The notes beneath the pieces were generated by a model. It did not search any database. It had not been told where the DNA came from and saw only the letters and a program-made list of their open reading frames with translations. The position numbers and the translations under genes were made by a program. Shown here piece after piece: positions 9,705 to 31,784 of a DNA stretch of 64,000 bases. The stretch is from Mycolicibacterium tusciae JS617. GTDB taxonomy: Bacteria > Actinomycetota > Actinomycetes > Mycobacteriales > Mycobacteriaceae. The stretch lies in the NCBI RefSeq assembly GCF_000243415.2, contig NZ_KI912270.1, positions 5,041,837 to 5,105,836 of the forward strand, given 5' to 3'. Numbering within the stretch: the first letter of the stretch is position 1; every line of letters starts with the position of its first letter.

Positions 9705-9729
9705 AAAAAGAACGGGCGGGAGACCCACG

Positions 9730-11422: not shown

Positions 11423-11470
11423 AAAAGAACGGGCGGCCACCGCCCACTCACCTCCCGAAAGGAACCCACC

Positions 11471-12547: not shown

Positions 12548-12705
12548 ATCACCCACGATCCCGAAAGGCACTGCCATGCAGGAACATCGGGCAAGACGGC
12601 CACGGCTTGACCGACCCGCACCGATGCCATCGGGGAACTGCACAGGCGGAAGCGCCTGCGGCGCTGCTGACACCGGGTCCCTGCGGGCCCCGGCGCTAGT
12701 TTATT

Positions 12706-12891
12706 TGCCTTCTGGCTTTCGATTATGGCCGGCGGCCCGCTGCGTGCAAGGCCACGGCCTCCGCTGCGCTCCGGGCCCAAGGGCTCGCAAATTTCTTTCG
12801 AGGCTCGCTGCGCTCGCGCGAAGAATTTTGCGCCCGGACCTTTGCACTCCACGGCCCTGATGCCGGCCCAAATCTTCAGTGCCAGAAGGCA
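12706..12891 (+). repeat. Family A leader hairpin, copy A3
   Basis: A perfect 11-bp outer stem, TGCCTTCTGGC (12706-12716) with GCCAGAAGGCA (12881-12891). GGCCGG/CCGGCC arms lie inside it, and the central part differs from A1/A2. An upstream AGCGCC-type hairpin sits near 12650. It precedes the parB-like gene and occupies most of the 12548-12946 gap. Confidence 0.75.
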
Positions 12892-12946
12892 AAAAGAACG
12901 GGCGGCCACCGCCCACTCACCCCATCGATGAAAGGGCACCATCACC

Positions 12947-14746: not shown

Positions 14747-14930
14747 CGCTTTCTCTTTTATCAATTGTGGCCGGCGGCCCGCTCCGCGCAAGGCCACGGA
14801 TACGGCCTAACGGCCCGGAAACGTTTCCACGAATCCGCTCGCAAAAGACGCTCACGGGGAAAACTTTCCGTCCGGACCTGTGCACTGCGCTGGGCCCTAC
14901 GCCCGGCCATGACATTGATGCGAGAAAGCG
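14747..14930 (+). repeat. Family A leader hairpin, divergent copy A4
   Basis: The conserved core matches A1-A3 (GTGGCCGGCGGCCCGCTCCG; GGACCTGTGCACT). The arms differ in sequence but still pair: CGCTTTCTC (14747-14755) with GAGAAAGCG (14922-14930), and ATCAAT with ATTGAT further in. An AGCGCC/GGCGCT-type hairpin lies upstream at about 14711. The following 14931-15110 stretch is AT-richer and holds no gene that I can support. Confidence 0.7.
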
Positions 14931-15110
14931 CCAAAGAACAGGCAGCACCAAGGCTGAACAGGAGTGTGCGAAGGCATGTTACGACCGATTCGAGGGTTCG
15001 ATACCGGCCAGAGCCATACCGGCGGAACGGGTTGCCTTCAGCGTAATTACGCGCTGGTTTGCGCCCGGTCAAAAAAGGTCACAGCTTACCCACAAATAGC
15101 CCGATAAATG

Positions 15111-15140
15111 TTGCCTGACACGCCGAAATGCCGATATAAT
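15111..15140 (+). promoter_or_regulatory. Probable sigma-A promoter of nrdH
   Basis: TTGCCT (15111-15116), an 18-base spacer, and a perfect TATAAT (15135-15140) about 45 bases before the nrdH start. It lies in an unusually AT-rich stretch. Confidence 0.6.
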
Positions 15141-17401: not shown

Positions 17402-17682
17402 GCCCGCCTGCGGCGGGCGTGGTCCGTAGCCCCTCACCTTTAACCGTTCAGCTGGGTCGCCCAGTGTGACCGACGAGGCCCCGTCACGCGCAACCCACAC
17501 CCGCGCCGAACTGCGCAGGCCGAGTGACCTTTTCGGCCCTATCAAGCTCGCTGCCGCTCGCGGGCCGAAAACCCTGCTCCGCTCGTCACGGCCTCTTCGA
17601 GGTTGCGCGCGCCACCCCGCCGGTCCCCCGCAACCCCAGCGCTAACCGGCGCACCCAACCCGTACACGAACGGAGAACAACC
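17402..17682 (+). repeat. Family B leader hairpin, copy B1 (type 1)
   Basis: It runs from a GCCCGCC/GGCGGGC hairpin to the RBS GGAGAACAACC directly before the ATG at 17683. It holds GCGCAACC (17488-17495) opposite GGTTGCGC (17601-17608) and the invariant TTTTCGGCCC/GGGCCGAAAA apical stem. It is almost identical to B7 and B8, although the downstream genes are unrelated. Confidence 0.8.
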
Positions 17683-18246
17683 ATGACCACCCACACCGAC
17701 CTCCTCGCCGGCGGCCGCCACACCTACTGGCTGGGCGAACGCCTCGCCGCCATCGCCACCGACCTGCTCTACTTCGTCGAACCCGGCCACGAGGAACTGC
17801 ACCCCGACGGGCTGACCATCACCGCGCACCGCCGCAACCACACCTGGGGCTCCACCGCCCAGGTCTGGGCCCGAGACCCCCAGGGAGTCCTGCAGGCCAG
17901 CGCCGAATCCAGCGCCGCACACCCCGACCTCGGCCGTTCCATCTCCGCACGCACCCGCCACTTCCGCGGCGGCGGCCTGCTCTGGACCCACACCGCACCC
18001 GTCGTCACCGATGAACCGATCAACCCGCTGGACCCCTGGAGCTACGCCGCTGTTGGCCGCCACCTCTACCAGCTGCGCCCCGAATACCGCCTCGACGGCG
18101 CACCCCTATGGCAGCTCCGCACCGACGACCTCGACACCGAGCACCCCCGCTTCGCCGGCATCGACTCCGCCACCACCCACATCGCCGAGTTCCTCGAACC
18201 CGCACCCGCACCGTCCCGGCGGCGCCGCGGCACCCGTAGCGCCTAA
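17683..18246 (+). CDS. Small orphan plasmid protein behind leader B1
   Basis: A 187-residue protein, MTTHTDLLAGGRHTYWLGER. It has no recognised domain; W- and H-rich segments (LTITAHRRNHTWGSTAQVW) suggest a folded globular protein. The start is fixed by the RBS GGAGAACAACC at the end of the leader. Confidence 0.65.
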   Translation: MTTHTDLLAGGRHTYWLGERLAAIATDLLYFVEPGHEELHPDGLTITAHRRNHTWGSTAQVWARDPQGVLQASAESSAAHPDLGRSISARTRHFRGGGLLWTHTAPVVTDEPINPLDPWSYAAVGRHLYQLRPEYRLDGAPLWQLRTDDLDTEHPRFAGIDSATTHIAEFLEPAPAPSRRRRGTRSA

Positions 18247-18325
18247 CACCCACACCACGCCGGCCGCCGCCAACCCACCGCGGCCGCCGGCACCTCCCCT
18301 CCCGCACCACCGAAAGGACCCGACA

Positions 18326-18811
18326 ATGAGCGAGCACGCCACCACCCCCGCAGGCGAGACGACACCCCTGCGACGCGACGGAAACGCCCACTACTACAAC
18401 CAGATTGACCCTCCAGCAACACATTTCATCGAACAGACCGTGGCAGTGCACCTACGGCTCTCCGACGACGGCACCCGCTGGATCGTCGACGGCCCCAGCG
18501 TCGACGGCCACCCGCTCGACAGCACCTACCGCGATCTAAGCGCCACCAACTCCGAATGCGCCTGCAGCCAGCCCAAGGAATGCGCCCGGCTCCGCGACCA
18601 CGCCGACAATCTGCCGCTCCCCACCGGCGCCGAACTGCTCACGATGCTCGCCGACGCCCTCGACGCACCCGCCGAGCTCATCACCGCCGAACAAGCCAGC
18701 AGCTGGGCCGGGCGCGCCCTCACCGCCGACGAGCTCGACCGCCTCTCCGAAGCGATCCCGCACTCCTCGATCCCCGACGCCATCGACACCATCGCCGCCA
18801 GCTGGGACTAA
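18326..18811 (+). CDS. Small orphan plasmid protein
   Basis: A 161-residue protein, MSEHATTPAGETTPLRRDGN, behind RBS GAAAGGACCCGACA. It contains a CACSQPKECARL segment with three cysteines that could bind metal. The rest is helical. It lies 79 bases after the preceding gene with no leader between them, so it is probably cotranscribed. Confidence 0.65.
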   Translation: MSEHATTPAGETTPLRRDGNAHYYNQIDPPATHFIEQTVAVHLRLSDDGTRWIVDGPSVDGHPLDSTYRDLSATNSECACSQPKECARLRDHADNLPLPTGAELLTMLADALDAPAELITAEQASSWAGRALTADELDRLSEAIPHSSIPDAIDTIAASWD

Positions 18812-18824
18812 AACTCAGCACCGC

Positions 18825-18866
18825 GGGCCCGGTCACCCACCGCAGGGTGACCGGGCCCCCCTTTTC
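18825..18866 (+). terminator. Intrinsic terminator
   Basis: GGGCCCGGTCACCC pairs with GGGTGACCGGGCCC across a six-base loop and is followed by a CCCCTTTTCC tract, 14 bases after the stop at 18811. Confidence 0.75.
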
Positions 18867-18928
18867 CTCCGGTCCTAGCCGCCCGCCGCAGCACCCCTCC
18901 GGGGCGCTTGGCGAACGTCCGATATCCG

Positions 18929-19200
18929 TAACCCGTCACCTATCTACCTGTCAGCAGCCGCCCAGCCTGACCGCAGGACCCCGAGCCGGCTCAACCCACA
19001 CCCGCGCCGAACTGCACAGGCCGAGTGACCTTTTCGGCGCTGCCAACTCGCCGAAGGCGCTGTCGCGCCCGGCTCGCGCACGCCGAAAACCCTGCTCCGT
19101 CCCGGTGCGGCCTCTGCGGGGTTGACCCGCCCCACCCCACGGTCCATGACGCGCCCGCACTGACCGGCGCACCGCCGGTCACCAACAGTGAGGACCCACC
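18929..19200 (+). repeat. Family B leader hairpin, divergent copy B2 (type 3)
   Basis: It keeps the invariant core (CAGGCCGAGTGACCTTTTCG and GCCGAAAACCCTGCTCCG). The arms are changed and the apical loop is longer; the apical stem shrinks to TTTTCGGC/GCCGAAAA. CTCAACCC on the left still faces GGGGTTGA on the right. It ends at RBS GAGGACCCACC before the ATG at 19201. Confidence 0.7.
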
Positions 19201-19860
19201 ATGTTTGACCCGTTCGACAAGATCGCCGTACCCACCACCGCCGGCACCTACGTCATCGCCCTGTACTACGACATCGACGCCGCCGCACCCGATTACAGCG
19301 ACGACGGCGGATTCGTCTATCTCGGCACCGCCCGCACCATCAGCGCTCAACTGGGCGACGCCGCCCATGACGTCGCCGCCCTGCTGCGCCAGCACACCGC
19401 CGCCAATGACTCCCTCAACGACCATGAGTACCGGTCCGCGGCCGCCCTCTGCCGCTACCTGTGGCTGACCCGCGGACTCACCGGCATCCTGGAAGTCACC
19501 CGCAGCGGCGACCGCTACGGCACCGCCGAGCCCAGCGCCGACCGCTACCGCAGCATCGACGGTCTGGCCTGGGCGCCCGCCGACGCGACAGCACCCCTGG
19601 ACTACACACGTGGCACCGTGGCCGCCTACGACGCCTGGGCCAACGGCGAGGTCTACGGCTACACCGTCGTCGCCCCCGACGGCCGATACGTCGCCTCCTG
19701 CTGGGACTTTTACGCCGACCCCGACGAGCCGATCACCGCTGACGCTCCCCCCGGCCTGGCCATCATGGTCGCCGAGGCGCGCGAGGAGATCGACCAGGAC
19801 GTCGAAGCACGGACGGCCCAGGCCAACACCATCGGGTCCGGATTCATCGGGCTCATCTAA
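19201..19860 (+). CDS. Orphan plasmid protein behind leader B2
   Basis: A 219-residue acidic protein, MFDPFDKIAVPTTAGTYVIA. It has two aromatic-rich halves (EVTRSGDRYGTAE; EVYGYTVVAPDGRYVASCWDFYAD). I recognise no family. The second half looks like a small beta-rich domain. Confidence 0.65.
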   Translation: MFDPFDKIAVPTTAGTYVIALYYDIDAAAPDYSDDGGFVYLGTARTISAQLGDAAHDVAALLRQHTAANDSLNDHEYRSAAALCRYLWLTRGLTGILEVTRSGDRYGTAEPSADRYRSIDGLAWAPADATAPLDYTRGTVAAYDAWANGEVYGYTVVAPDGRYVASCWDFYADPDEPITADAPPGLAIMVAEAREEIDQDVEARTAQANTIGSGFIGLI

Positions 19861-19961
19861 AAACACTGTCCCGGCGAGCCGGCCACCGCGACATCCACCG
19901 GTGGCCGGCCGCCCTACAGCGACCCACCGCGTGCTGGCGGCCGCCCTGGCGGGCGCCGGAT

Positions 19962-20242
19962 GCCCGCCTGCGGCGGGCGTGGGTTGGGTAGCTACTCACC
20001 TTTAACCGTCAGCAGGGGTCGCAGCCTAATCGGCCGGGGGCCCGACCGGTCAACCCACACCGACGCCGAACTACGCAGGCCGAGTGACCTTTTCGGCCCT
20101 ATCAAGCTCGCTGCCGCTCGCGGGCCGAAAACCCTGCTCCGTCCGGCGTCGGCTCTTCGGGGTTGACCGCCCACCCTCACCCGATTGACCGCTCCCCAGC
20201 GCTGACCGGCGCACCACTCACCACGAGAAACGGAGAACAACA
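19962..20242 (+). repeat. Family B leader hairpin, copy B3 (type 2)
   Basis: The best-paired copy. GGTCAACCC faces GGGTTGACC, CCGACGCCG faces CGGCGTCGG, and the apical TTTTCGGCCC/GGGCCGAAAA stem is intact. The element ends with RBS GGAGAACAACA at the ATG at 20243. Nearly identical to B5. Confidence 0.8.
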
Positions 20243-20701
20243 ATGGACCACGCATTCGAACTCGCCTTCGACCTTCTCGCCGAAGCCGCCGACCGCATCC
20301 AGCACCAGCAGTACGGCATCACCCGGAACCTGCACCACAACCACGGACCGATCCAGCTGACCACCGTCCACGAGTACAGCCCCGAACAGGGACACCACCT
20401 CGTCCTGCTCGCCAACGACGACTACGGACTCCTGGCCGCCATCGAAGCCACCTCACCCGACCTCGACACCACCCCCGACACCCGCATCCAGAAAGTCCGG
20501 GACGGCGACCTGACCTTCCACGCCGTGCCCGGCACCTGGTCCTACCGCGCCACTGGCGCCCACACCTACACCCTGACCGCCGGAATCGGCGACGAACCGA
20601 TGTGGACCCTCACCATCGACCACGCACCCCTGGCCCTGGCCTACGACGACCTCCACCAGGCCATCGACGACGTGCTCACCACCGAACCCGTCGCCGCATA
20701 A
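20243..20701 (+). CDS. Small orphan plasmid protein behind leader B3
   Basis: A 152-residue protein, MDHAFELAFDLLAEAADRIQ. A helical N-terminus is followed by a beta-rich part (SYRATGAHTYTLTAGIGDEP). No family recognised. Confidence 0.65.
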   Translation: MDHAFELAFDLLAEAADRIQHQQYGITRNLHHNHGPIQLTTVHEYSPEQGHHLVLLANDDYGLLAAIEATSPDLDTTPDTRIQKVRDGDLTFHAVPGTWSYRATGAHTYTLTAGIGDEPMWTLTIDHAPLALAYDDLHQAIDDVLTTEPVAA

Positions 20702-20714
20702 CCGATCTGCGGCC

Positions 20715-20739
20715 GGGCCCGCCACCACCAGGCGGGCCC
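20715..20739 (+). terminator. GC-rich hairpin after the 152-residue gene
   Basis: GGGCCCGCC (20715-20723) pairs with GGCGGGCCC (20731-20739), 13 bases after the stop. No U tract. Confidence 0.5.
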
Positions 20740-20778
20740 GGCCCCATCCACCCACTGAAAGGACTCTCAATGAAGAAG

Positions 20779-21987
20779 TCAAGCCGCGGCGGTGACCGGG
20801 GGTGAATCAGGTTGCCAGGTCCGGTTGTCACGGATGAGGGCGTAGAGAACGTTGGTGCGCCGTCGCGCCAGGCAGATGGTGGCGGGGATCGGCCGCTTTC
20901 CTTCGTCTCGTTTGCGCTGGTAATAGGCCTTGGAATCTGGGTCGCAGCGGATCGCGGTCAACGCCGACATGTACATGACTCGGCGCAGTCGGCGACTGTA
21001 ACGCTTGGGGGTGTGCAGTCGTCCGGTGCGCTTTCCGGAGTCTCGAGACACTGGCGCCAGGCCGGCCCAGGCCGCGAGTTGGTCAGCCGATCCGATCAGC
21101 GCGGGATCACCAACGGCGGCGAGGAATTCGGCGCCCAGCCGAAATCCTATGCCGGGCATGCTGGTGATCACCTCGGCGAGTGGATGGCGGCGAAATCGGC
21201 CCTCGATGTCGGCGTCGGTGGTCTTGATGCGGTCATCGAGGGCGATCACCTCCCGCGCCAGATCAGCGATCAACCCGGCGGCCACCTCTTCGCCGGGCAG
21301 GCGCATCGTCTGGGTTTTCACTGCAGCCACCGCAGCCGCCGCGATCGAGGCGGCGTTGCGCACACCGGCATCGGTCAAGACTTTGGTCAGCCGCGAAACA
21401 CCGCTTTGTCGAATCGCTTTGGGACGCTGGTAGCGCGCCAGCAGTATCACCCAGCCACGGTCTTGGCTCGGTTGGGCGGCTCGTTCCAGGGCCGGGCAGA
21501 CCGCGACGAGTTGCTGGCGCAGCCGGTTGATCGTGCGGGTGCGGTCGGCCACCAGGTCGGCGCGATGGCCGGTGAGCATCCGCAACTCGCTGATCAAGTC
21601 ATCATCGGGATGCAGAACGGGCAAGTCCTGGCCGCGCATGCGCGCCTGGTCGGCGATCACCCGAGCGTCTTTGGCATCGGTTTTGGCCTCCCCACCGCGG
21701 TAGGTCGCCGAGGCCTGCCACACCGCCCGGCCGGCCAGATACCGGACCGTTTTGCCGGCGTCGGCCAGCACCGTCAACACCAGTGCGGCATACACCGTGG
21801 TCAGGTCCACCGTCCACGACACTCGCTCGGCCAGCTCGTCGATTTCAGCGACGAGCTCCCGGATCGGTTGCTCGTCGTTGACCAGCCGGCGCGACAACAC
21901 CACCTTCCCGCTGTCGTCGACCGCACAAACCCAGTGATGCTCTTTACCAACATCCACTCCAGCCCACACCTGGCCCGTCGTCATCAC
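20779..21987 (-). CDS. IS110-family recombinase (DEDD), copy 1
   Basis: A 402-residue protein. The N-terminal RuvC-like DEDD domain starts VWAGVDVGKEHHWVCAVDD and includes TDAKDARVIADQARM. The C-terminal Tnp20 domain includes ITSMPGIGFRLGAEFLAAVG and WAGLAPVSRDSGKRTGR, whose serine provides the second active site. IS110 enzymes insert element DNA using a bridge RNA transcribed from the noncoding end. The long plus-strand frame at 20812-22203 is an antisense shadow. Confidence 0.93.
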   Translation of the reverse strand: MMTTGQVWAGVDVGKEHHWVCAVDDSGKVVLSRRLVNDEQPIRELVAEIDELAERVSWTVDLTTVYAALVLTVLADAGKTVRYLAGRAVWQASATYRGGEAKTDAKDARVIADQARMRGQDLPVLHPDDDLISELRMLTGHRADLVADRTRTINRLRQQLVAVCPALERAAQPSQDRGWVILLARYQRPKAIRQSGVSRLTKVLTDAGVRNAASIAAAAVAAVKTQTMRLPGEEVAAGLIADLAREVIALDDRIKTTDADIEGRFRRHPLAEVITSMPGIGFRLGAEFLAAVGDPALIGSADQLAAWAGLAPVSRDSGKRTGRLHTPKRYSRRLRRVMYMSALTAIRCDPDSKAYYQRKRDEGKRPIPATICLARRRTNVLYALIRDNRTWQPDSPPVTAAA

Positions 21988-22009
21988 CCCTCTTTTCGCC
22001 TGTCTACCA

Positions 22010-22150
22010 ACATGATCCCCATGGACAACCCCGCCAGCATTTCCTTAAACAAGCGATCACATCGCAGATCTCAATCAGCGGCCAGAGGAGTCCAGGCAGG
22101 CCGGGCGGCCAGTCCTTTCAAGCCGCACCACCAGGGCCGGCTACGACCAT
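22010..22150 (-). ncRNA. Predicted IS110 bridge RNA, copy 1 (approximate limits)
   Basis: In the IS orientation the noncoding end upstream of the recombinase contains, 5' to 3': TGGTGGTG (complement of 22126-22133), TTGAAAGGAC (22112-22121), ATTGAGA (22069-22075) and TTTAAGGA (22042-22049). The first two match the left and right sides of the copy 2 target. The third equals the element's own recombinase-end terminus, and the fourth complements its noncoding-end terminus with one G-U. The order target-left, target-right, donor-left, donor-right is that known for the IS621 bridge RNA. Limits are inferred. Confidence 0.6.
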
Positions 22151-22230
22151 GCAGCCTCACCCGACCCACCCGGGTCACAGCCCAACGTAACAACACGAAG
22201 TAACTGCAACTACGAACTTAAGGACCCACC

Positions 22231-22506
22231 ATGACCAACAGCAACGACGCCGACTGGCAGGCCGACTGGGCAATCGAGATCGACCGAGGCCGCCTGGCCC
22301 TCGACGGCAGCCTGGTCGACGCCATCAACGCCCTCACCCGCGCACAGCAGGCGCTGGCCACCTTGACCAGCACACACGTCTACGACACCGAGTTCGCCGA
22401 GAACCCCCAAGGCGACGACATCGCTTCGTTCCTGTCCGACAGCCTGCGCAACACCCGAGCCGCCTACCACATCGCTCACCGCGTCATCGAGGACGAACGC
22501 ACCTGA
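22231..22506 (+). CDS. Small orphan plasmid protein whose RBS is supplied by IS110
   Basis: A 91-residue helical acidic protein, MTNSNDADWQADWAIEIDRG. No recognised family. The sequence immediately upstream is the IS110 right end, whose CTTAAGGAC gives an RBS at the original distance (ccacc then ATG). The native RBS half (CTGAAAGGAC) is now 1461 bases away. Confidence 0.65.
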   Translation: MTNSNDADWQADWAIEIDRGRLALDGSLVDAINALTRAQQALATLTSTHVYDTEFAENPQGDDIASFLSDSLRNTRAAYHIAHRVIEDERT

Positions 22507-22516
22507 GACGTCAGGG

Positions 22517-22547
22517 GCCGGGCCCACCGCCACCTGGTGGGCCCGGC
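22517..22547 (+). terminator. 12-bp perfect hairpin
   Basis: GCCGGGCCCACC (22517-22528) pairs with GGTGGGCCCGGC (22536-22547), shortly after the stop at 22506. No U tract. Confidence 0.5.
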
Positions 22548-22616
22548 TCCGCAGTCCAGACAACAGCTCTGCACCAACACATCTCGACCACGGAGGCCCG
22601 ACAATGCGAACCGCTC

Positions 22617-22671
22617 CACAACACCCACAATATGCGTTGCAAGGCGTATTCCCTCAGAGTAGTATCAACGT
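22617..22671 (+). promoter_or_regulatory. Promoter and palindromic operator of the higBA-like module
   Basis: TTGCAA, a 17-base spacer (GGCGTATTCCCTCAGAG) and TAGTAT form a good sigma-A promoter. Its -10 box ends about seven bases before the toxin ATG at 22672, so a leaderless mRNA is expected. The -35 lies inside the imperfect palindrome ATGCGTTGCAAGGCGTAT, a likely operator for the antitoxin. Confidence 0.5.
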
Positions 22672-23061
22672 ATGTTGATCGACTGGTCCGACGAGTTCAA
22701 CACCTGGCTCGATCGGCTTGAAGATCACGCCCACAACGACCCGATCAGCGCCCGCCGACTCGACTACATCACCGCACAACTGCAGCACCTCCAAGAACTC
22801 ACCGACGCACCCGAAGAAGACACCGCCCACCTGCGCCGCGTTCGTCAATCCAAGACCTATCCCGTCTGGCGACTGGCCCACCCCTACGACCCCGACATCG
22901 CCGTGCGGCTCATCGTGTGGTTCCCCGACGACGAACACGCCGTCATCGCCCTCTTCGCCGGCGACAAAGCCCGCATCGGAAACGCCTTCTACAACAGCGT
23001 CGGAACCCGAGCCGACGCCGCCATCGAGACCTGGAAACGCAGAAAGGACACCCAATCATGA
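22672..23061 (+). CDS. higB: HigB-like toxin (RelE superfamily)
   Basis: A 129-residue protein, MLIDWSDEFNTWLDRLED. The core segments HLRRVRQSKTYPVWRLAHP and VRLIVWFPDDEHAVIALFAGDKAR match the phage-derived Gp49/HigB-like toxins, which cleave mRNA on the ribosome. It precedes the antitoxin gene (toxin first, the usual order for higBA) with an ATGA overlap. No RBS is visible before the ATG, which fits a leaderless transcript. Confidence 0.8.
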   Translation: MLIDWSDEFNTWLDRLEDHAHNDPISARRLDYITAQLQHLQELTDAPEEDTAHLRRVRQSKTYPVWRLAHPYDPDIAVRLIVWFPDDEHAVIALFAGDKARIGNAFYNSVGTRADAAIETWKRRKDTQS

Positions 23062-23414
23062 CTGTTGAAGATCGCGGCGGGGCCCGCCTCAAGAAGCTGC
23101 TCGCCGACCCCGACCGCGCCGAGCGCGTCGCCCACATCCGCCAGCAGATGCGCGAGGACGACCGCGCCTACGCCATGAACCTGGCGCTGATCCGCCGCGC
23201 CGCCGACCTCACCCAAGTCGAACTCGCCCGACGCCTGGGAGTCGGACAAGCCGCGGTGTCCAAAGTCGAACGCCAACACGACCTTCTGCTGTCCACCCTG
23301 TCCAGCTACGTCGCCGCCGCCGGCGCCAACGCGCGCATCGTCGTCACCGTCGGAGACCGCGACCTGGAATTCGACCTCGCCACCCTGGCCGACGCAGCGC
23401 CACCGGAGCAGTAA
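23058..23414 (+). CDS. higA: HigA-like XRE antitoxin
   Basis: A 118-residue protein, MTVEDRGGARLKKLLADPDR. The HTH is clear: ALIRRAADLTQVELARRLGVGQAAVSKVER. The N-terminal helical part probably binds the toxin. The ATG overlaps the toxin stop, and RBS AGAAAGGACACCC lies within the toxin gene. It should repress the module through the palindrome upstream of the toxin. Confidence 0.85.
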   Translation: MTVEDRGGARLKKLLADPDRAERVAHIRQQMREDDRAYAMNLALIRRAADLTQVELARRLGVGQAAVSKVERQHDLLLSTLSSYVAAAGANARIVVTVGDRDLEFDLATLADAAPPEQ

Positions 23415-23529
23415 CCAGTCGCACCCGAGGGCACCCGTCAGCGAGCGACGCTGGCGTGGTGCCCTCGTTCATCGTCGAGCCCGGCGCTGCGGCCCCGATG
23501 CGCCGGCGCACTAGGTGCGACCGACGGAT

Positions 23530-23802
23530 GCCCGCCTGCGGCGGGCGTGGGTTGGGTAGCTACTCACCTTTAACCGTCAGCAGGGGTCGCAGCCTAATCG
23601 GCCGGGGGCCCGACCGGATCAACCCACACCGACGCCGAACTCCGCAGGCCGAGTGACCTTTTCGGCCCTATCAAGCTCGCTGCCGCTCGCGGGCCGAAAA
23701 CCCTGCTCCGTGCGCCGTCGGCTCTTCGGGGTTGACCGCCCACCCTCACCCGATTGACCGCTCCCCAGCGCTGACCGGCAGCGCACCGAAAGGGGAAACG
23801 TC
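23530..23802 (+). repeat. Family B leader hairpin, copy B4 (type 2)
   Basis: Pairing blocks: 23576-23580 with 23771-23775; 23583-23586 with 23763-23766; AATCGG 23596-23601 with CCGATT 23750-23755; TCAACCC 23619-23625 with GGGTTGA 23729-23735; GCAGG 23644-23648 with CCTGC 23702-23706; TTTTCGGCCC 23659-23668 with 23691-23700. The stretch GAGTGACC is a conserved bulge. RBS AAAGGGGAAACGTC precedes the ATG at 23803. Confidence 0.8.
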
Positions 23803-24054
23803 ATGTCCATCACCACCGCCATCATCACCACCGACTGCATCGCCACCATCGACCAGCCCGTCGATTGCCTCCTCGACGCCATGATCGAAGCCCAGAACCG
23901 CGTCGGACAGATCACCTGGGACGACATCGCCGCCGAGCGGGCCCAGGGCACCTACCGCAATCCCGCAGGAGCCACGGCCCCCATCACCGTCGTCGACACC
24001 AGCACCACCACCGACCTGCTCGACACCATCCGAACCTGGATGCAGCACGCCTAA
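23803..24054 (+). CDS. Small orphan plasmid protein behind leader B4
   Basis: An 83-residue protein, MSITTAIITTDCIATIDQPV. No domain recognised. It is short and thinly supported by composition alone, but the leader and RBS argue that it is translated. Confidence 0.55.
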   Translation: MSITTAIITTDCIATIDQPVDCLLDAMIEAQNRVGQITWDDIAAERAQGTYRNPAGATAPITVVDTSTTTDLLDTIRTWMQHA

Positions 24055-24160
24055 GCGCAGCGCCGCCGGCCCGGCCCCGCCTCGCGCGGGGACCGGGCTA
24101 CCGGCGTCTTCCGGGATCACACCTCACCAGCAGCAGCGGCCGCCCTGGCGGGCGCCGGAT

Positions 24161-24442
24161 GCCCGCCTGCGGCGGGCGTGGGTTGGGTAGCTACTCACCT
24201 TTAACCGTCAGCAGGGGTCGCAGCCTAATCGGCCGGGGGCCCGACCGGATCAACCCACACCGACGCCGAACTACGCAGGCCGAGTGACCTTTTCGGCCCT
24301 ATCAAGCTCGCTGCCGCTCGCGGGCCGAAAACCCTGCTCCGTGCGCCGCCGGCTCTTCGGGGTTGACCGCCCACCCTCACCCGATTGACCGCTCCCCAGC
24401 GCTGACCGGCGCACCACTCACCACGAGAAACGGGAGAACATC
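24161..24442 (+). repeat. Family B leader hairpin, copy B5 (type 2)
   Basis: Nearly identical to B3 up to RBS CGGGAGAACATC before the ATG at 24443. It is preceded, as in B3, by an extra GC-rich hairpin region (GGCCGCCCTGGCGGGCGCC). The 24055-24160 stretch also holds a terminator-like hairpin. Confidence 0.8.
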
Positions 24443-24808
24443 ATGACCACCACCACCGCCACACCCACCGTGCCCACCACCGTGTACCTCAACGAGGCCC
24501 CCGCAAGTTTCCTCGGCTTCAACCGCGCCGCACCCGCGCGGCTGCGCGCCGCCGCAACTTTCAACCTGCCCATCCCCACCGACACCCGACCACAGCAGAC
24601 CGCCATCAGCGCCGCACTCGAGCACATCTTCGACGAGCTCAACTGCGAACCCACCACCACCTGGGCCACCGGATGGCGCCACGCCGGACACCGCAGCCTG
24701 TCCGTCGGCGACGTCGTAGTCATCGGCGAAACCGCCTGGGCCGTCGCCTCGGTGGGTTGGAACCCCGTGTCCACCGACGAACTCACCGCAGCCATTGATC
24801 GGTCCTGA
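24443..24808 (+). CDS. Small orphan plasmid protein behind leader B5
   Basis: A 121-residue protein, MTTTTATPTVPTTVYLNEAP. The C-terminal part (RSLSVGDVVVIGETAWAVAS) looks like a small beta-barrel with a GDVV turn. No family named. Confidence 0.6.
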   Translation: MTTTTATPTVPTTVYLNEAPASFLGFNRAAPARLRAAATFNLPIPTDTRPQQTAISAALEHIFDELNCEPTTTWATGWRHAGHRSLSVGDVVVIGETAWAVASVGWNPVSTDELTAAIDRS

Positions 24809-24814
24809 CCACCC

Positions 24815-24846
24815 GATCGGGCCCCGCCCCGGCGCGGGGCCCGATC
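24815..24846 (+). terminator. 12-bp perfect hairpin
   Basis: GATCGGGCCCCG (24815-24826) pairs with CGGGGCCCGATC (24835-24846) just after the stop at 24808. No U tract. Confidence 0.5.
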
Positions 24847-24898
24847 ACCACCCCAGCTCATCCATCACCCATCCTTGAAAGGACTCTCAATGAAGAAG

Positions 24899-26107
24899 TC
24901 AAGCCGCGGCGGTGACCGGGGGTGAATCAGGTTGCCAGGTCCGGTTGTCACGGATGAGGGCGTAGAGAACGTTGGTGCGCCGTCGCGCCAGGCAGATGGT
25001 GGCGGGGATCGGCCGCTTTCCTTCGTCTCGTTTGCGCTGGTAATAGGCCTTGGAATCTGGGTCGCAGCGGATCGCGGTCAACGCCGACATGTACATGACT
25101 CGGCGCAGTCGGCGACTGTAACGCTTGGGGGTGTGCAGTCGTCCGGTGCGCTTTCCGGAGTCTCGAGACACTGGCGCCAGGCCGGCCCAGGCCGCGAGTT
25201 GGTCAGCCGATCCGATCAGCGCGGGATCACCAACGGCGGCGAGGAATTCGGCGCCCAGCCGAAATCCTATGCCGGGCATGCTGGTGATCACCTCGGCGAG
25301 TGGATGGCGGCGAAATCGGCCCTCGATGTCGGCGTCGGTGGTCTTGATGCGGTCATCGAGGGCGATCACCTCCCGCGCCAGATCAGCGATCAACCCGGCG
25401 GCCACCTCTTCGCCGGGCAGGCGCATCGTCTGGGTTTTCACTGCAGCCACCGCAGCCGCCGCGATCGAGGCGGCGTTGCGCACACCGGCATCGGTCAAGA
25501 CTTTGGTCAGCCGCGAAACACCGCTTTGTCGAATCGCTTTGGGACGCTGGTAGCGCGCCAGCAGTATCACCCAGCCACGGTCTTGGCTCGGTTGGGCGGC
25601 TCGTTCCAGGGCCGGGCAGACCGCGACGAGTTGCTGGCGCAGCCGGTTGATCGTGCGGGTGCGGTCGGCCACCAGGTCGGCGCGATGGCCGGTGAGCATC
25701 CGCAACTCGCTGATCAAGTCATCATCGGGATGCAGAACGGGCAAGTCCTGGCCGCGCATGCGCGCCTGGTCGGCGATCACCCGAGCGTCTTTGGCATCGG
25801 TTTTGGCCTCCCCACCGCGGTAGGTCGCCGAGGCCTGCCACACCGCCCGGCCGGCCAGATACCGGACCGTTTTGCCGGCGTCGGCCAGCACCGTCAACAC
25901 CAGTGCGGCATACACCGTGGTCAGGTCCACCGTCCACGACACTCGCTCGGCCAGCTCGTCGATTTCAGCGACGAGCTCCCGGATCGGTTGCTCGTCGTTG
26001 ACCAGCCGGCGCGACAACACCACCTTCCCGCTGTCGTCGACCGCACAAACCCAGTGATGCTCTTTACCAACATCCACTCCAGCCCACACCTGGCCCGTCG
26101 TCATCAC
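24899..26107 (-). CDS. IS110-family recombinase (DEDD), copy 2
   Basis: The 402-residue protein is identical in sequence to the copy 1 enzyme: N-terminal DEDD domain (VWAGVDVGKEHHW) and C-terminal serine-containing Tnp20 domain (ITSMPGIGFRLGAEF). The lack of any difference between the copies implies either very recent duplication or gene conversion. Confidence 0.93.
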   Translation of the reverse strand: MMTTGQVWAGVDVGKEHHWVCAVDDSGKVVLSRRLVNDEQPIRELVAEIDELAERVSWTVDLTTVYAALVLTVLADAGKTVRYLAGRAVWQASATYRGGEAKTDAKDARVIADQARMRGQDLPVLHPDDDLISELRMLTGHRADLVADRTRTINRLRQQLVAVCPALERAAQPSQDRGWVILLARYQRPKAIRQSGVSRLTKVLTDAGVRNAASIAAAAVAAVKTQTMRLPGEEVAAGLIADLAREVIALDDRIKTTDADIEGRFRRHPLAEVITSMPGIGFRLGAEFLAAVGDPALIGSADQLAAWAGLAPVSRDSGKRTGRLHTPKRYSRRLRRVMYMSALTAIRCDPDSKAYYQRKRDEGKRPIPATICLARRRTNVLYALIRDNRTWQPDSPPVTAAA

Positions 26108-26129
26108 CCCTCTTTTCGCCTGTCTACCA

Positions 26130-26270
26130 ACATGATCCCCATGGACAACCCCGCCAGCATTTCCTTAAACAAGCGATCACATCGCAGATCTCAATCAGCG
26201 GCCAGAGGAGTCCAGGCAGGCCGGGCGGCCAGTCCTTTCAAGCCGCACCACCAGGGCCGGCTACGACCAT
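26130..26270 (-). ncRNA. Predicted IS110 bridge RNA, copy 2 (approximate limits)
   Basis: Same sequence as copy 1, shifted by 4120 bases. The guide-like segments lie at 26246-26253, 26232-26241, 26189-26195 and 26162-26169. The target guides TGGTGGTG and TTGAAAGGAC match this copy's own insertion site exactly, on both sides of the GGAC junction. Confidence 0.6.
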
Positions 26271-26351
26271 GCAGCCTCACCCGACCCACCCGGGTCACAG
26301 CCCAACGTAACAACACGAAGTAACTGCAACTACGAACTTAAGGACACCACC

Positions 26352-26894
26352 ATGGGCCAATACTTCAACCCCGTCATCGTCGACCCCACGGGCCGACCCC
26401 TGGCCGCCCTCAACCCCGCCACCTACGGCGCCGGACCCAAACTGTCCACCCACACCCGCGCCGACTCCCCGCTCATGACCGCCGTGGAAATACTGCTCAC
26501 CCTCGACGGCGGCGCCCGCCTGGTCTGGGCCGGCGACTACGAGGACCCCGACGACGACCAGGATGCGCTGTATTGGCTCGTCGAACCCCAGCATTTCGTG
26601 TGCTTCGCCGGTCTCATCGACCCCGACGAGCCAGTCACCCCCAACGCTGAAGCGCCCGCAGCACTGCCGGCCCACAGGTACATCTGCAACCCCGACAAGC
26701 GCCAGTACCTCGACAAAGACCGCTTCGGTGTCGACGACTACGGCATCCGGCGCTCCCCCCTGCCCTGGCTCACCGCCGAAGGCGGCCTCGCCACACAGAG
26801 ACGCCACACCACCTGGGCCCGCGACCGCATCTACCTCGCAGCCCAGCACCCAGGCCCCGGATGGACCGAAGTGCCCGCCCTGCTCTGGGTCTGA
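26352..26894 (+). CDS. Orphan plasmid protein behind IS110 copy 2
   Basis: A 180-residue protein, MGQYFNPVIVDPTGRPLAAL. It contains AGDYEDPDDDQDALYWLVEP and a region with HRYICNPDKRQYLDKDRFGV. Its look (MGQYF start, short basic and aromatic motifs) is like phage- or plasmid-encoded small proteins of unknown function. The RBS now comes from the IS end. Confidence 0.65.
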   Translation: MGQYFNPVIVDPTGRPLAALNPATYGAGPKLSTHTRADSPLMTAVEILLTLDGGARLVWAGDYEDPDDDQDALYWLVEPQHFVCFAGLIDPDEPVTPNAEAPAALPAHRYICNPDKRQYLDKDRFGVDDYGIRRSPLPWLTAEGGLATQRRHTTWARDRIYLAAQHPGPGWTEVPALLWV

Positions 26895-27000
26895 CCAACC
26901 ACCAGCCCGCCCGGGTCCGCGCAGCCGCGCGGGACCGGCGGGCCTGCGGTGTCTTCCGGTCCGCCGCCCCCTGTCGGCCGGCGCGCCCGGAGGCGCGGAG

Positions 27001-27300
27001 GCCCGCCTGCGGCGGGCGTGGGTTTGGGTAGCTGCTCACCTTTAACCGTTCAGCTGGGTCGCCCAGTGTGACCGACGAGGCCCCGTCACGCGCAACCCAC
27101 ACCCGCGCCGAACTGCGCAGGCCGAGTGACCTTTTCGGCCCAATGCCAGCTCGCCAGGGCGCTGCGCGCCGGCTCGCGCGGGCCGAAAACCCTGCTCCGC
27201 TCGTCACGGCCTCTTCGAGGTTGCGCGCGCCACCCCGCCGGTCCCCTGCACCCCAGCGCTAACCGGCGCAGCAAATACCGCAGACGAACGGAGAACAACC
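27001..27300 (+). repeat. Family B leader hairpin, copy B6 (type 1b)
   Basis: Type 1 arms (GCGCAACCC facing GAGGTTGCGC) with a longer apical loop (AATGCCAGCTCGCCAGGGCG and so on). The TTTTCGGCCC/GGGCCGAAAA stem is intact. Near-identical to B9. Ends at RBS GGAGAACAACC before the ATG at 27301. Confidence 0.8.
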
Positions 27301-27612
27301 ATGACCTACCCCCTCGACGACTTCTGGGCCAACGTCGACGCCGCCCTGACCCGCTGCGCAGAGGCCACCACCGTCGAAGACGTCATCACCATCCTCAACG
27401 AACACTTCAACCCCTCCAGCGGCGCCGCCTTCTTCGGCGGCTCCGGGGGCGACACCCAGCTCCTCGACAAGCTCTACTGGGACCGAGCCGACAACACCTG
27501 GCGGGTCGTCCGCTACGACGCCCCCTACTACTGGTGCCTGGCCGACACCAACGGCGACCTGCTCACCTACATCGAAGGCGACGTCTACCGCGGCAACACC
27601 ATGACCGACTAA
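27301..27612 (+). CDS. Small orphan plasmid protein behind leader B6
   Basis: A 103-residue acidic protein, MTYPLDDFWANVDAALTRCA, with an aromatic-rich C-terminal half (VVRYDAPYYWCLADTNGD). No family recognised. Confidence 0.65.
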   Translation: MTYPLDDFWANVDAALTRCAEATTVEDVITILNEHFNPSSGAAFFGGSGGDTQLLDKLYWDRADNTWRVVRYDAPYYWCLADTNGDLLTYIEGDVYRGNTMTD

Positions 27613-27712
27613 CCCGCCGCCCCCGGCCGGTGTCCGCGCAGGGGTGCGGGCATCGGCTGGTGTGGTGTCTTCCGGTGCGCGGGCGCCGGCGCACCAGGTG
27701 CGACCGGCGGAG

Positions 27713-27993
27713 GCCCGCCTGCGGCGGGCGTGGTCCGTAGCCCCTCACCTTTAACCGTTCAGCTGGGTCGCCCAGTGTGACCGACGAGGCCCCGTCACGC
27801 GCAACCCACACCCGCGCCGAACTGCGCAGGCCGAGTGACCTTTTCGGCCCTATCAAGCTCGCTGCCGCTCGCGGGCCGAAAACCCTGCTCCGCTCGTCAC
27901 GGCCTCTTCGAGGTTGCGCGCGCCACCCCGCCGGTCCCCCGCAACCCCAGCGCTAACCGGCGCACCCAACCCGTACACGAACGGAGAACAACC
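27713..27993 (+). repeat. Family B leader hairpin, copy B7 (type 1)
   Basis: Essentially identical to B1 and B8 from the GCCCGCC hairpin to the start codon. The similarity with B8 and B9 begins further upstream, at about 27625 (GGCCGGTGTCCGCGCAGG), so nearly the whole intergenic region is duplicated. Confidence 0.82.
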
Positions 27994-28287
27994 ATGGAGA
28001 TCGACTACGGCCTGGCCTGGGACTTCCTCGACGACCACGACAGCCGGCCCTACCAACTGCGCTTCCGCCGCAACGGGTGGTTCGACGACACCGGCCAACT
28101 CATCGCCGTCGTCGCCAAGTTCGACCACCCCGACAACGGACACACCCTGCCCATCAGCCGAGCCGACGTCGACTTCAACGACGTCGAGCAGGCCATCGAC
28201 GGCTGGCAGAACTGGGCCCGAATTACCGACTCCACCGTCAGTCTCGCCGCCATTCGCCGCCGCCTCACCGCCGCCGGGCTCGTCTAA
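27994..28287 (+). CDS. Small orphan plasmid protein behind leader B7
   Basis: A 97-residue protein, MEIDYGLAWDFLDDHDSRPY. Beta-rich middle, helical end (SLAAIRRRLTAAGLV). No family recognised. Followed after 25 bases by the 149-residue gene. Confidence 0.65.
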   Translation: MEIDYGLAWDFLDDHDSRPYQLRFRRNGWFDDTGQLIAVVAKFDHPDNGHTLPISRADVDFNDVEQAIDGWQNWARITDSTVSLAAIRRRLTAAGLV

Positions 28288-28312
28288 CCCCACCCCCAGA
28301 AAGGAACCCACC

Positions 28313-28762
28313 ATGAGCGCATTCATCGTCGACCCCGAACACATCCACGTCCTGCTCTGGGCCGCCAGCCGGCCCACCAGCCCCTACGGACCCCTGGTCT
28401 GGTACTACGACAACCCCAGCCGAGAAGGCCGGCTCACCGACGACGCAATCGACACCGTCGGACAGATGCTTGTCGACGAGAACGCCGCCTCCGTCAACTA
28501 CCGCTACGACGAAGACGACGCCTATATCTACGCCTACCAGCAGCCCCGCCACACCACCTGGAGTGGTGTCGAGCTGATCAAAGCTCTGCACTGCTACGAA
28601 TACCAGTCCTGCGAGCACCCCGGCTGGCGCACCAGCCAAGCCCACTCCTTCTGCCGCGCCCTCGAACGCCGCCTCATCGGCGAACTGCCCGGCTACGACG
28701 ACGCGCCCTGGGCCATCAGCAGCCTCGACACCCCCGCCGCCGAACGACGGGCCGACACCTAA
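28313..28762 (+). CDS. Small orphan plasmid protein
   Basis: A 149-residue protein, MSAFIVDPEHIHVLLWAASR, behind RBS AGAAAGGAACCCACC. It has several Tyr-rich segments (NYRYDEDDAYIYAYQQP; KALHCYEYQSCEHPGW). Probably cotranscribed with the preceding gene. The opening IVD-EHIHVLLW is seen in other actinobacterial plasmid and phage proteins of unknown role. Confidence 0.65.
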   Translation: MSAFIVDPEHIHVLLWAASRPTSPYGPLVWYYDNPSREGRLTDDAIDTVGQMLVDENAASVNYRYDEDDAYIYAYQQPRHTTWSGVELIKALHCYEYQSCEHPGWRTSQAHSFCRALERRLIGELPGYDDAPWAISSLDTPAAERRADT

Positions 28763-28861
28763 CCGGCACCCACCGGCCGGTGTCCGCGCAGGGTGCGGGC
28801 ATCGGCTGGTGTGGTGTCTTCCGGTGCGCGGGCGCCGGCGCACCAGGTGCGACCGGCGGAG

Positions 28862-29142
28862 GCCCGCCTGCGGCGGGCGTGGTCCGTAGCCCCTCACCTT
28901 TAACCGTTCAGCTGGGTCGCCCAGTGTGACCGACGAGGCCCCGTCACGCGCAACCCACACCCGCGCCGAACTGCGCAGGCCGAGTGACCTTTTCGGCCCT
29001 ATCAAGCTCGCTGCCGCTCGCGGGCCGAAAACCCTGCTCCGCTCGTCACGGCCTCTTCGAGGTTGCGCGCGCCACCCCGCCGGTCCCCCGCAACCCCAGC
29101 GCTAACCGGCGCACCCAACCCGTACACGAACGGAGAACAACC
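28862..29142 (+). repeat. Family B leader hairpin, copy B8 (type 1)
   Basis: Essentially identical to B1 and B7 through the RBS GGAGAACAACC. Similarity with B7 extends upstream to about 28770. It precedes the DUF4192 gene, an unrelated downstream gene. Confidence 0.82.
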
Positions 29143-30093
29143 ATGACCATCAAACTCGGAGCCCCCGCCGACGTCATCGCCGCTGCCCCCGCCCTGCTGG
29201 GCTTCACCCCCACCAACAGCGTCGTGGTCTACCTGCTGGGCACCGAGCCCGACGGCACCCCCATCATCAAAGTCACCATCCGCTGCGACATCACCATCAG
29301 CGCCAGCCAAGCTGCCAGCTTCGCCCGCACCTGCCACCTCAACGCCGCCAAATACGACGGCGCCCTGCTCCTGGCCGTCTGCAGCGCCGAGCTCGACGAC
29401 CACGCCGCAGTGGTCCTCGACGGCATCCGCGACTCCCTCACCGAGGCCGGCATCACCGTCCGCCGCCGCCTCACCACCCGCGACGTCACCGCCGCCGGTA
29501 CCTGGATCGACCCCGACACCGGAGCCACCGGAACCACCTACCCCTACACCGACTCGCTGCTGACCGCGCAGCGCATCCACGACGGCGCGATCCTCACCGC
29601 CCGCCGCGAGGACCTCGTGCGCGAGTTCGACCCCATCACCCCCGCCCCCGCCGTCGCCGTCGGAGACCACGCCGTCCTGGTCTCCACCACCATGGAGGAC
29701 ATCACCGACGCTCTCACCGGAGCCAGCCGCTACATCAGCGCCACCCTGTCCACCCGCGCCGGCATCCTCATCACCAGCCACCCCGCCCTCCGCGACGCGA
29801 TGCTGCACCTCGCCCTCGACCACGAGCGTGCCGCCACCAACGTGTGGACCCACATCGCCCGCCAACTGCGCGGGCGGCCCCGCACCGAAGCGCTCACCAT
29901 CGCCGCAGTCTGCTACTGCCTGATCAACGACACCGTCCGCGCCGGAATCGCCGCCGACATCGCCATCACCGAGGCCACCGACGCCGGCGACGAACCGCCC
30001 ACCCTGGCCGCCATGCTCCTGGCCGCCCTCGAATCGGGCATCGAGCCCGCCCTGATCCGCCGCGTCCTGACCGACACCCACCCCGGCACTTAA
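29143..30093 (+). CDS. DUF4192 family protein
   Basis: A 316-residue protein, MTIKLGAPADVIAAAPALLGFTPTNSVV, with the PALLGF-P--S-V start typical of the actinobacterial DUF4192 family. Later parts include AAICYCL-like helical segments with a GD-ARA style repeat region. Function unknown; common on actinobacterial chromosomes and plasmids. The largest protein in the leader array. The long minus-strand frame opposite it is a shadow. Confidence 0.8.
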   Translation: MTIKLGAPADVIAAAPALLGFTPTNSVVVYLLGTEPDGTPIIKVTIRCDITISASQAASFARTCHLNAAKYDGALLLAVCSAELDDHAAVVLDGIRDSLTEAGITVRRRLTTRDVTAAGTWIDPDTGATGTTYPYTDSLLTAQRIHDGAILTARREDLVREFDPITPAPAVAVGDHAVLVSTTMEDITDALTGASRYISATLSTRAGILITSHPALRDAMLHLALDHERAATNVWTHIARQLRGRPRTEALTIAAVCYCLINDTVRAGIAADIAITEATDAGDEPPTLAAMLLAALESGIEPALIRRVLTDTHPGT

Positions 30094-30192
30094 CCCACCG
30101 CGCCCGGCCGGTGTCCGCGCAGGGTGCGGGCATCGGCTGGTGTGGTGTCTTCCGGTGCGCGGTCGCCGGCGCACTAGGTGCGACCGGCGGAT

Positions 30193-30489
30193 GCCCGCCT
30201 GCGGCGGGCGTGGTCCGTAGCCCCTCACCTTTAACCGTTCAGCTGGGTCGCCCAGTGTGACCGACGAGGCCCCGTCACGCGCAACCCACACCCGCGCCGA
30301 ACTGCGCAGGCCGAGTGACCTTTTCGGCCCAATGCCAGCTCGCCAGGGCGCTGCGCGCCGGCTCGCGCGGGCCGAAAACCCTGCTCCGCCCGTCGCGGCC
30401 TCTTCGAGGTTGCGCGCGCCACCCCGCCGGTCCCCTGCACCCCAGCGCTAACCGGCGCAGCAAATACCGCAGACGAACGGAGAACAACC
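30193..30489 (+). repeat. Family B leader hairpin, copy B9 (type 1b)
   Basis: Near-identical to B6, with similarity upstream to about 30103 shared with B7 and B8. Ends at RBS GGAGAACAACC before the ATG at 30490. Last copy of the array. Confidence 0.8.
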
Positions 30490-30777
30490 ATGACCCTCGC
30501 CGCCAACCCCTGGTCCGTCACCGACCACGACCCCACCAGCAACCTCAACGCCGGTCCCAGCACCACGGCGGTGCTGGCCTACGCCCGCGCCGACATCCAC
30601 TCCGCCGTGGCCGCAGCCGACGACCCACACCGCCGCCGCCAATACGCCCTGTCGGCCCGCGACAACGCCGTCACCGTCCTGCTCGCCGGCGACGCCAGCC
30701 CCGACGAGCTCCGCCACGCCGAGTACTACCTGGCCGACGCCGAAGCCTTCATCGCCGCCACCGCCCCGACCCACTAG
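30490..30777 (+). CDS. Small orphan plasmid protein behind leader B9
   Basis: A 95-residue, mainly helical protein, MTLAANPWSVTDHDPTSNLN. The middle (YARADIHSAVAAADD and ALSARDNAVTVLLAG) looks like a small helical bundle. No family recognised. Confidence 0.6.
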   Translation: MTLAANPWSVTDHDPTSNLNAGPSTTAVLAYARADIHSAVAAADDPHRRRQYALSARDNAVTVLLAGDASPDELRHAEYYLADAEAFIAATAPTH

Positions 30778-31632: not shown

Positions 31633-31766
31633 ACCCCAACTCTTTCCATCCCCCTCACCCTAAGCCCGCCCCTCACCACACACTGGCACCAATTCCTCAC
31701 CACCACCCCCTTGCAGCACACCCACTCCGCCTCCGCTCCGCTCCCACCCAACAGACTTCCGGCACA

Positions 31767-31784
31767 TTGGCACAAGTTGTGCAA
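31767..31784. promoter_or_regulatory. Inverted repeat upstream of the relaxase, operator or oriT candidate
   Basis: TTGGCACAAGTTGTGCAA is an almost perfect palindrome. It is followed by two GC hairpins (GGGCGCTGGCGCGCCC and GGCCGCCTGGCGGCGGCC) before the relaxase start. The cluster lies in the space between divergent genes, where MobF plasmids often carry oriT. Confidence 0.4.

Follow-up and report, generated by a model that had tools for sequence, protein, structure and literature searches.

Repeated hairpin leaders next to a mycobacterial MobF relaxase gene as probable single-stranded-DNA promoters

Results

The DNA analysed here (the window) is a stretch of 64,000 nucleotides (nt) from Mycolicibacterium tusciae JS617 (NZ_KI912270.1, positions 5,041,837–5,105,836, forward strand). 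It contains an array of nine hairpin leaders (family B), each ending at the start of a gene, and the gene immediately downstream of the array encodes a TrwC/MobF relaxase, toward which the array reads. On the evidence set out below, the leaders are very probably promoters that work on single-stranded DNA in a conjugative leading region, like the Frpo sequences of plasmid F.

Copies 1 (17402–17682, type 1) and 2 (18925–19200) precede the open reading frames (ORFs) at 17683–18246 and 19201–19860. Three copies of type 2 follow: copy 3 (19962–20242) before the ORF at 20243–20701, copy 4 (23530–23802) before that at 23803–24054 (DUF7280), and copy 5 (24161–24442) before that at 24443–24808. The remaining copies are of type 1, namely copy 6 (27001–27300; ORF 27301–27612), copy 7 (27713–27993; ORF 27994–28287), copy 8 (28862–29142; ORF 29143–30093, DUF4192), and copy 9 (30193–30489; ORF 30490–30777). 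All were returned both by a repeat finder (family D3) and by a nine-copy profile, which placed them on the plus strand with E values of 7.5e-50 to 3.1e-83 and gave no other place in the window at E 1e-3.

Fourteen plasmid stretches, among them pRAW, pMK12478, pMAH135, and pMSPYR101, were examined together with their annotation. These stretches and the window yielded 105 plus-strand copies at E 1e-4, with up to 13 copies per stretch (L011, L013). An ORF of at least 45 amino acids follows 102 of the 105 copies, and the first ATG or GTG lies at a median of 7 nt from the end of the model (range −10 to +13). The one extra match at E 1e-3, a reverse match within an existing copy, is an echo of the hairpin. 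The profile, the repeat finder, and the start-codon distances bear out the initial annotation, which had described nine copies of one orientation ending at gene starts. The invariant apical core that it proposed (TTTTCGGCCC/GGGCCGAAAA, with the bulge GAGTGACC) is near-constant in the window copies but variable in their relatives; across other genera, the conserved part is the TTGAC/GTCAA block and what follows it. A GTAGCnnCTCACC block is conserved just outside the base of many family-B hairpins (19988–20000 in the window and equivalent positions). Two IS110-family insertions of equal length, in apparent exact repeat, lie inside the array (20779–21987 and 24899–26107), and pMSPYR101 (L005) carries three IS110 genes with a single protein accession among its leaders.

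The frames downstream of the leaders encode 100 distinct proteins in the window and the plasmid stretches, which fits the earlier statement that the array is not a product of simple gene duplication. A protein search with the 187-amino-acid product of the gene after copy 1 returned nine proteins including the query, and none was informative on function. The leader-led proteins were somewhat more acidic than 67 hand-picked other plasmid proteins (median isoelectric point 5.44 versus 6.03), a difference that we regard as suggestive.

The fold of the leaders was studied by comparison. Alignment A1 contained 40 of the 50 size-selected cores, taken from 64 non-redundant family-B copies and read on the minus strand; two-sided changes were found in 19 of its 24 RNAalifold consensus pairs. 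The arm duplex had a mean energy of −45.4 kcal/mol when both arms came from the same copy and −30.8 kcal/mol with arms of other copies. In this arm-swap test, own-arm pairing was better in 54 of 58 copies. The compensatory change noted in the initial annotation is thus confirmed, and a long single-strand stem is under selection. RNAalifold with RNA parameters gave −104.5 for the minus strand and −87.7 for the plus strand; with DNA parameters, it returned almost nothing for the full alignment. No Rfam covariance model matched the window at gathering thresholds.

Wobble pairs were used to compare the two strands. Paired columns were chosen without using wobbles, and permutation of partners (500) served as the null. 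In this test, which ignores relatedness and whose figures are therefore softer than they look, G·T and A·C cells stood at 57:13 on the minus strand of family B, as compared with a permuted ratio of 1.97 on average and 2.96 at most. A rerun with slightly different settings gave 70:13 (permuted maximum 3.75), and the second leader family described below (family A) gave 40:14 (permuted maximum ratio 1.81). In both families, the wobbles favour the minus strand as the folding strand.

From loop to base, the minus-strand 3' arm contains TTGAC and then, usually 16–20 nt further on, nAnnnT. TTGA was present in this arm in 46 of the 64 non-redundant copies, followed by TAnnnT at 15–20 nt in 28 and by nAnnnT at 16–20 nt in 43 of these. 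On the plus strand, the right arm has TTGA in 51 of 64 copies, with TAnnnT in 0 and nAnnnT in 4 of the 51. The A and T of the hexamer are invariant in all 40 rows of A1, and both are retained in 56 of the 64 non-redundant wider matches. The eight exceptions comprise four partial matches, two copies of a poorly aligned subfamily, and two short versions, which are real exceptions. The spacer measures 19 nt in 27 of the 64 copies, 20 nt in 11, 16 nt in 7, 18 nt in 5, and 17 nt in 2. In the minus-strand 3' arm of copy 3, the −35-like hexamer TTGACC (20048–20053) stands 19 nt from the −10-like hexamer TAGGCT (20023–20028); both were read from the sequence, and the −10 is also conserved in the aligned copies. 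Copy 8 has the same distance on the minus strand between TTGCGC (28948–28953), read from the sequence, and CACACT (28923–28928), read from the sequence and its conservation. As judged from these motifs, −35 and −10 boxes are reconstituted in the stem, with a spacing that is often 19 rather than 17 nt.

Base-pair probabilities were calculated for the single minus strand, restricted to copies having the A and the T. Over 50 non-redundant family-B copies, mean pairing dropped from 0.90 at the first hexamer position to 0.32 at the second, the −11 A. This base is thus predicted to be unpaired, as in an open promoter. A duplex would have the minus-arm −35 and −10 directed away from the gene; when the strand folds, the template is the opposite arm, which continues into the gene. 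Short versions of 84–95 nt occur in other genera (L027:5413–5496, L029:7616–7700, L030:6518–6602, and L036:9063–9157). Those of L027, L029, and L030 have little beyond the −35 helix and the arms on either side of the −10, and the short versions are perhaps the minimal element.

We also scanned for conventional promoters, at a threshold of 9 of 12 consensus bases that weaker mycobacterial promoters would escape, and found no plus-strand sigma-70-like site between the first and the last family-B leader. Between 14.5 and 31.8 kb, the scan returned two sites, with 1.0 expected from shuffles. One of them is on the plus strand: TTGCCT-18-TATAAT (15111–15140), before the glutaredoxin gene, which looks like a near-consensus conventional promoter.

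Family A lies further upstream, also on the plus strand. Copy 1 occupies 9495–9734, and copy 2 (11223–11451) stands before the probable start of a DUF932 gene. The open frame of this gene runs from 10592 and the domain from about 11747; in L001 and L005, the annotated DUF932 gene begins just past the matching leader. Copy 3 (12686–12920) precedes the ParB gene at 12947 and has TTGCAC-16 nt-CATAAT in its minus arm. A diverged copy 4 (14750–14946) lies upstream of the glutaredoxin (nrdH) gene at 15186. TTG, 15–19 nt, and nAnnnT were found in 29 of 38 non-redundant family-A arms, as compared with 1 of 38 plus-strand arms; shuffles gave 1.8 and 4.0. Of 56 copies, near-duplicates counted, 54 retain the A and T of the hexamer. 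One of the two exceptions is truncated at a contig end; the other (L008:12276–12455, hexamer CAACGC) breaks the rule and was omitted from alignment A3, which holds 36 of the 37 selected family-A rows. Two-sided changes occurred in 27 of 30 pairs, and the mean pairing fell from 0.80 at hexamer position 1 to 0.21 at the A (36 copies). Family A is an independent replication of the minus-strand promoter signature. Model R2 matched family-B positions in other genera through the inner part, so the two families look related.

The relaxase gene contains a MobF (TrwC) relaxase and a helicase domain (31875–34715, plus strand, E 7e-60); its frame opens at 31767, and its probable start was set by the annotated start in L003. 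A candidate origin of transfer (oriT) was located on the minus strand at 31761–31782, where the hairpin GCACAACTTGTGC is followed by the putative nic region CAATGTGCC. Comparison of 13 regions upstream of short relaxases revealed a minus-strand hairpin around GCACA..TGTGC, followed by AATGTGCC, in the window, L003, L005, L013, L050, and L056. The nic-like regions of the window and L005 are nearly identical. L051, the seventh of the 13, shares the flank, but its distal arm is imperfect, and L010 has a hairpin with a variant flank. Upstream of long relaxases, GTGCAAGAGGT was present on the minus strand in 9 of 12 regions (L002, L004, L006, L007, L009, L012, L014, L058, and L059), and L008 carried a variant. 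GTGCAAGAGGT resembles the nic region of plasmid F. In the F record, the nic motif is on the minus strand and the leading genes are on the plus strand, the same relative polarity as here. R388 is reported to be nicked 3' of a hairpin like that of the short-relaxase regions, followed by GTATTGTCT/ATAGCC (PMC4176350). An oriT region of pRAW has been used (PMC7105574), and a further study reports no known oriT sequence for its Mycolicibacterium plasmids (PMC8190616). The motifs point to the minus strand as the transferred strand. With the candidate nic on the minus strand, the transferred strand would be the template of the downstream genes, and the leader side would be the leading side.

The surroundings of the array suggest a conjugative element. 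Genes for DUF932, ParB, and glutaredoxin proteins lie upstream on the same strand; beyond the relaxase gene there are genes for EccA1 (type VII secretion), an AAA_10 ATPase that may be read as VirB4-like, and TcpC on the minus strand. Mycobacterial conjugative plasmids have been identified by the markers relaxase, VirB4, TcpC, and type VII system (PMC8190616). An NrdH or other glutaredoxin gene was found upstream of the leaders in 13 of the 14 plasmid stretches and a ParB gene in 10; the pRAW stretch starts too late to show either. Where mobF was annotated (12 of 14), it was downstream of the leaders and on the same strand in all 12. Two small minus-strand genes directly upstream of the long-type mobF (L002:24449–25541, L004:5407–6509, and similar cases) possibly encode relaxosome accessory proteins.

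The genome that contains the window (in a 6.9 Mb contig) has 18 leader matches: nine in the window, eight clustered again at a distance of about 0.49 Mb, and one on a small contig. In PLSDB, 39 records matched, all from Mycobacterium, Mycolicibacterium, or Mycobacteroides. Genome searches with covariance model R1 used the stricter filters of Infernal, at which weak matches are lost. They found copies in 29 of 401 genomes of the family Mycobacteriaceae (6 of 31 genera) and in 4 of 296 genomes of a class-wide sample, none outside the family. Family A was found in more genomes and genera than family B (40 of 201 genomes and 12 of 31 genera of Mycobacteriaceae); in the class-wide sample it was present in 3 of 296 genomes, all within the family. 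Where a contig held both R1 matches and TrwC, the leaders were upstream of, and on the same strand as, the nearest relaxase in 13 of 13 clusters, at least two of which appear, by coordinates, to overlap plasmid stretches already counted. For family A, all matches were on one strand in each of the 25 contigs listed with at least two matches. Given the candidate nic, the polarity of the arrays is that of a leading region next to an oriT and relaxase gene, with genes reading toward oriT.

Elsewhere in the window, type IIG restriction-modification-like genes and a Thoeris ThsB-like TIR gene lie downstream of the relaxase (38154–50164). TniQ-like and TnsB-like genes (1085–7187) suggest a Tn7-like element near the start of the window. 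A PADLOC run covered six large window proteins outside the array and has no bearing on the small genes.

Discussion

The hairpin potential, the covariation, the motif, the predicted unpaired base, and the polarity of the array emerged from sequence analysis. From these we infer the nicked strand, transcription, its timing, and the roles of the proteins in the following model. During conjugation, the relaxase would nick the minus strand a short way upstream of the gene that encodes it. The minus strand would enter the recipient with its 5' end first, the region from 31 to 10 kb being the leading region. Every leader would then fold on the single strand into a long hairpin. Its 3' arm, read from loop to base, would act as the non-template strand with a sigma-70-type −35 and −10, and its 5' arm, continuous with the gene, as the template. 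The helix would stop at position 1 of the −10 hexamer, so that the A at position 2 would already be unpaired, as in the open complex. RNA polymerase could start a few bases further on; the resulting mRNAs, short at the 5' end, would be made for establishment proteins while the DNA is still single-stranded. Synthesis of the second strand would dissolve the hairpins and end expression; since the duplex −35 and −10 point away from the gene, the switch should go off at this stage.

Several observations weigh against this model. Single-copy fold energies were modest (z −0.67 to −2.39 in six folds), and G+C-rich shuffled sequences also fold well; the claim of a structure is therefore borne by the comparative evidence. 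When wobbles were tested more simply, on 1x1 mismatches, real and shuffled sequences were not separated (82:11 versus 108:20, and 57:20 versus 72:35), and the permutation figures carry the weakness of unmodelled relatedness. The commonest family-B spacer is 19 nt (27 of 64, with 52 of 64 within 16–20 nt) and not 17 nt, and position 1 of the family-A hexamer is C in three quarters of the copies. Only copies bearing both hexamer bases, A and T, entered the pairing profile, and beyond the A the family-B strand is still partly paired (0.47–0.74), so the bubble would comprise one base and not its full length. The promoter scan may have passed over weak plus-strand promoters on account of its threshold. 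The nic-like pattern had no match in 5 of the 13 short-relaxase regions (L052–L055 and L057). The leaders lie between about 2 kb and about 130 kb (G181:C5) from the nearest relaxase, and a second relaxase of G304:C36 is encoded on the opposite strand, about 100 kb away. Among the 29 genomes with R1 matches, TrwC was not found in 11 and was on another contig in 7, all of which stand outside the polarity count. Most downstream proteins have no known domain; a role against host defences is therefore only suggested by the company that they keep.

The initial annotation had left open a structured mRNA leader or a hairpin DNA site. The minus-strand wobbles, the minus-arm −35 and −10, and the polarity support the DNA site and speak against the mRNA leader, in which transcription would start upstream and the plus-strand RNA would control termination or translation like a riboswitch, an attenuator, or an EGeRS-like element. 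That the plus strand folds too and that the leaders end close to the start codon would suit such a mechanism, and with EGeRS1 of pLS20, establishment genes preceded by a structured leader are already on record (PMC8708921). However, the wobbles favour the minus strand in both families, and an RNA leader gives no reason for a sigma-70-like −35 and −10 with a predicted unpaired −11 A in the minus arm. The consensus scan returned no plus-strand promoter between the outermost family-B leaders; Rfam gave no match at gathering thresholds, and the constant polarity toward the relaxase, where both were seen, would be unexpected. The strand-specific wobbles, the minus-arm promoter, and the polarity led us to reject the RNA leader as the first reading, and we consider it unlikely.

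A hairpin at which RNA polymerase or primase merely starts the second strand, its adjacency to genes being secondary, would fit the placement in a leading region. Frpo is said to serve primer RNA synthesis too, according to the title of a 1997 report by Masai and Arai. One site would be enough for priming, yet a stretch holds up to 13 copies, each close to a start codon; priming and promoter functions are, moreover, compatible. Priming as the sole function is very unlikely in our judgement. The same low probability applies to a site acting in the duplex, either an operator (e.g., for a ParB-like protein) or a conventional promoter that is repressed in donors and released when the DNA enters (zygotic induction). 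Protein binding is common at inverted repeats, and a ParB_N protein is encoded at 12947–14587, but the strand-asymmetric wobbles, the compensatory change along the arms, and the conserved mismatch at the A are not expected of such a site. The absence of TAnnnT from all 51 plus-strand arms led us to reject a plus-strand duplex promoter. A phage element was unsupported, as the window copy at 28862–29142 had no match among 50,697 phage records.

Frpo-like single-strand promoters thus remain our preferred reading of the leaders. We also think it likely that the conjugative elements of Mycobacterium and related genera have a widespread zygotic induction of their own. It would be based on two promoter families (A and B) that have no detectable sequence relation to Frpo, leave the −11 base unpaired in the fold, and together express, from the entering strand, up to a dozen or more uncharacterised establishment genes. 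If so, the leading region, the transferred strand, and the likely site of oriT could be recognised from the hairpins in conjugative elements of mycobacteria. The leaders would also give access to about 100 different small proteins, most of them uncharacterised, that may act against host defences. In the conserved unpaired −11 base, nature would offer an example of how RNA polymerase can be brought to open a folded single strand.

The initial annotation knew no named element of this kind and cited the start-associated sequences of mycobacteriophages as the nearest parallel. These are seemingly not the nearest: they are short repeats before unrelated genes, far shorter than the leaders, and do not form hairpins of which one arm holds a promoter. 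Caution is best justified by the EGeRS1 leaders of the pLS20 family (Bacillus), which are likewise repeated structured leaders before the establishment genes of conjugative plasmids. EGeRS1 is reported to be about 600 bp long, no constitutive promoter was found in it, and the transferred strand is the non-template strand (PMC8708921), which argues against a single-strand promoter there. The leaders described here do contain a promoter motif, and their candidate nic gives the opposite polarity. The two layouts are similar but lie on opposite strands, and the EGeRS1 leaders are not regarded as single-strand promoters.

The layout of the leaders matches a named element after all, the Frpo and ssi single-stranded promoters of F and ColIb-P9. 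Frpo1 and Frpo2 of F and the ssi sequences of ColIb-P9 are also near-identical, long imperfect hairpins in a MOBF leading region that end before unrelated genes. They lie on the transferred strand and read toward oriT, with a −35 and −10 reported in the stem (PMC9849209, PMC11541004). In F, the two Frpo copies share 90% identity and fold on the transferred strand; each stops about 20 nt short of its gene. The F stretch also has DUF932, ParB-like, and DNA-methylase genes. Model R1 had no match in it (L049) at E values up to 10 with default filters; therefore, the leaders may be said to work like Frpo but not to descend from it. As described in the sources available, the evidence for single-strand promoters rests on experiments with two enterobacterial plasmids, F and ColIb-P9. 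Relatives of Frpo are reported to be widespread; they were found mostly with BLAST, and a structure-guided search was applied to a few islands (PMC11541004, PMC12826799). BLAST surveys that start from known or newly proposed sequences would miss the hairpins described here. The text of these two papers contains no words beginning with actinobact- or mycobacteri-, and among the titles and abstract openings of open papers, none dealt with single-strand promoters or these repeats in mycobacteria or actinobacteria. Single-strand hairpin promoters have apparently not been described in mycobacteria before. Frpo-dependent early expression in recipients was demonstrated experimentally (PMC9849209), whereas the activity of the present leaders is predicted from sequence. 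They further differ from F in having up to 13 copies per stretch instead of two, a G+C-rich composition, two structural families, and mycobacterial and related hosts. Most likely, they form a new and widespread set of single-stranded-DNA promoters, probably an independent one, for the leading-region genes of conjugative elements in mycobacteria and their relatives.

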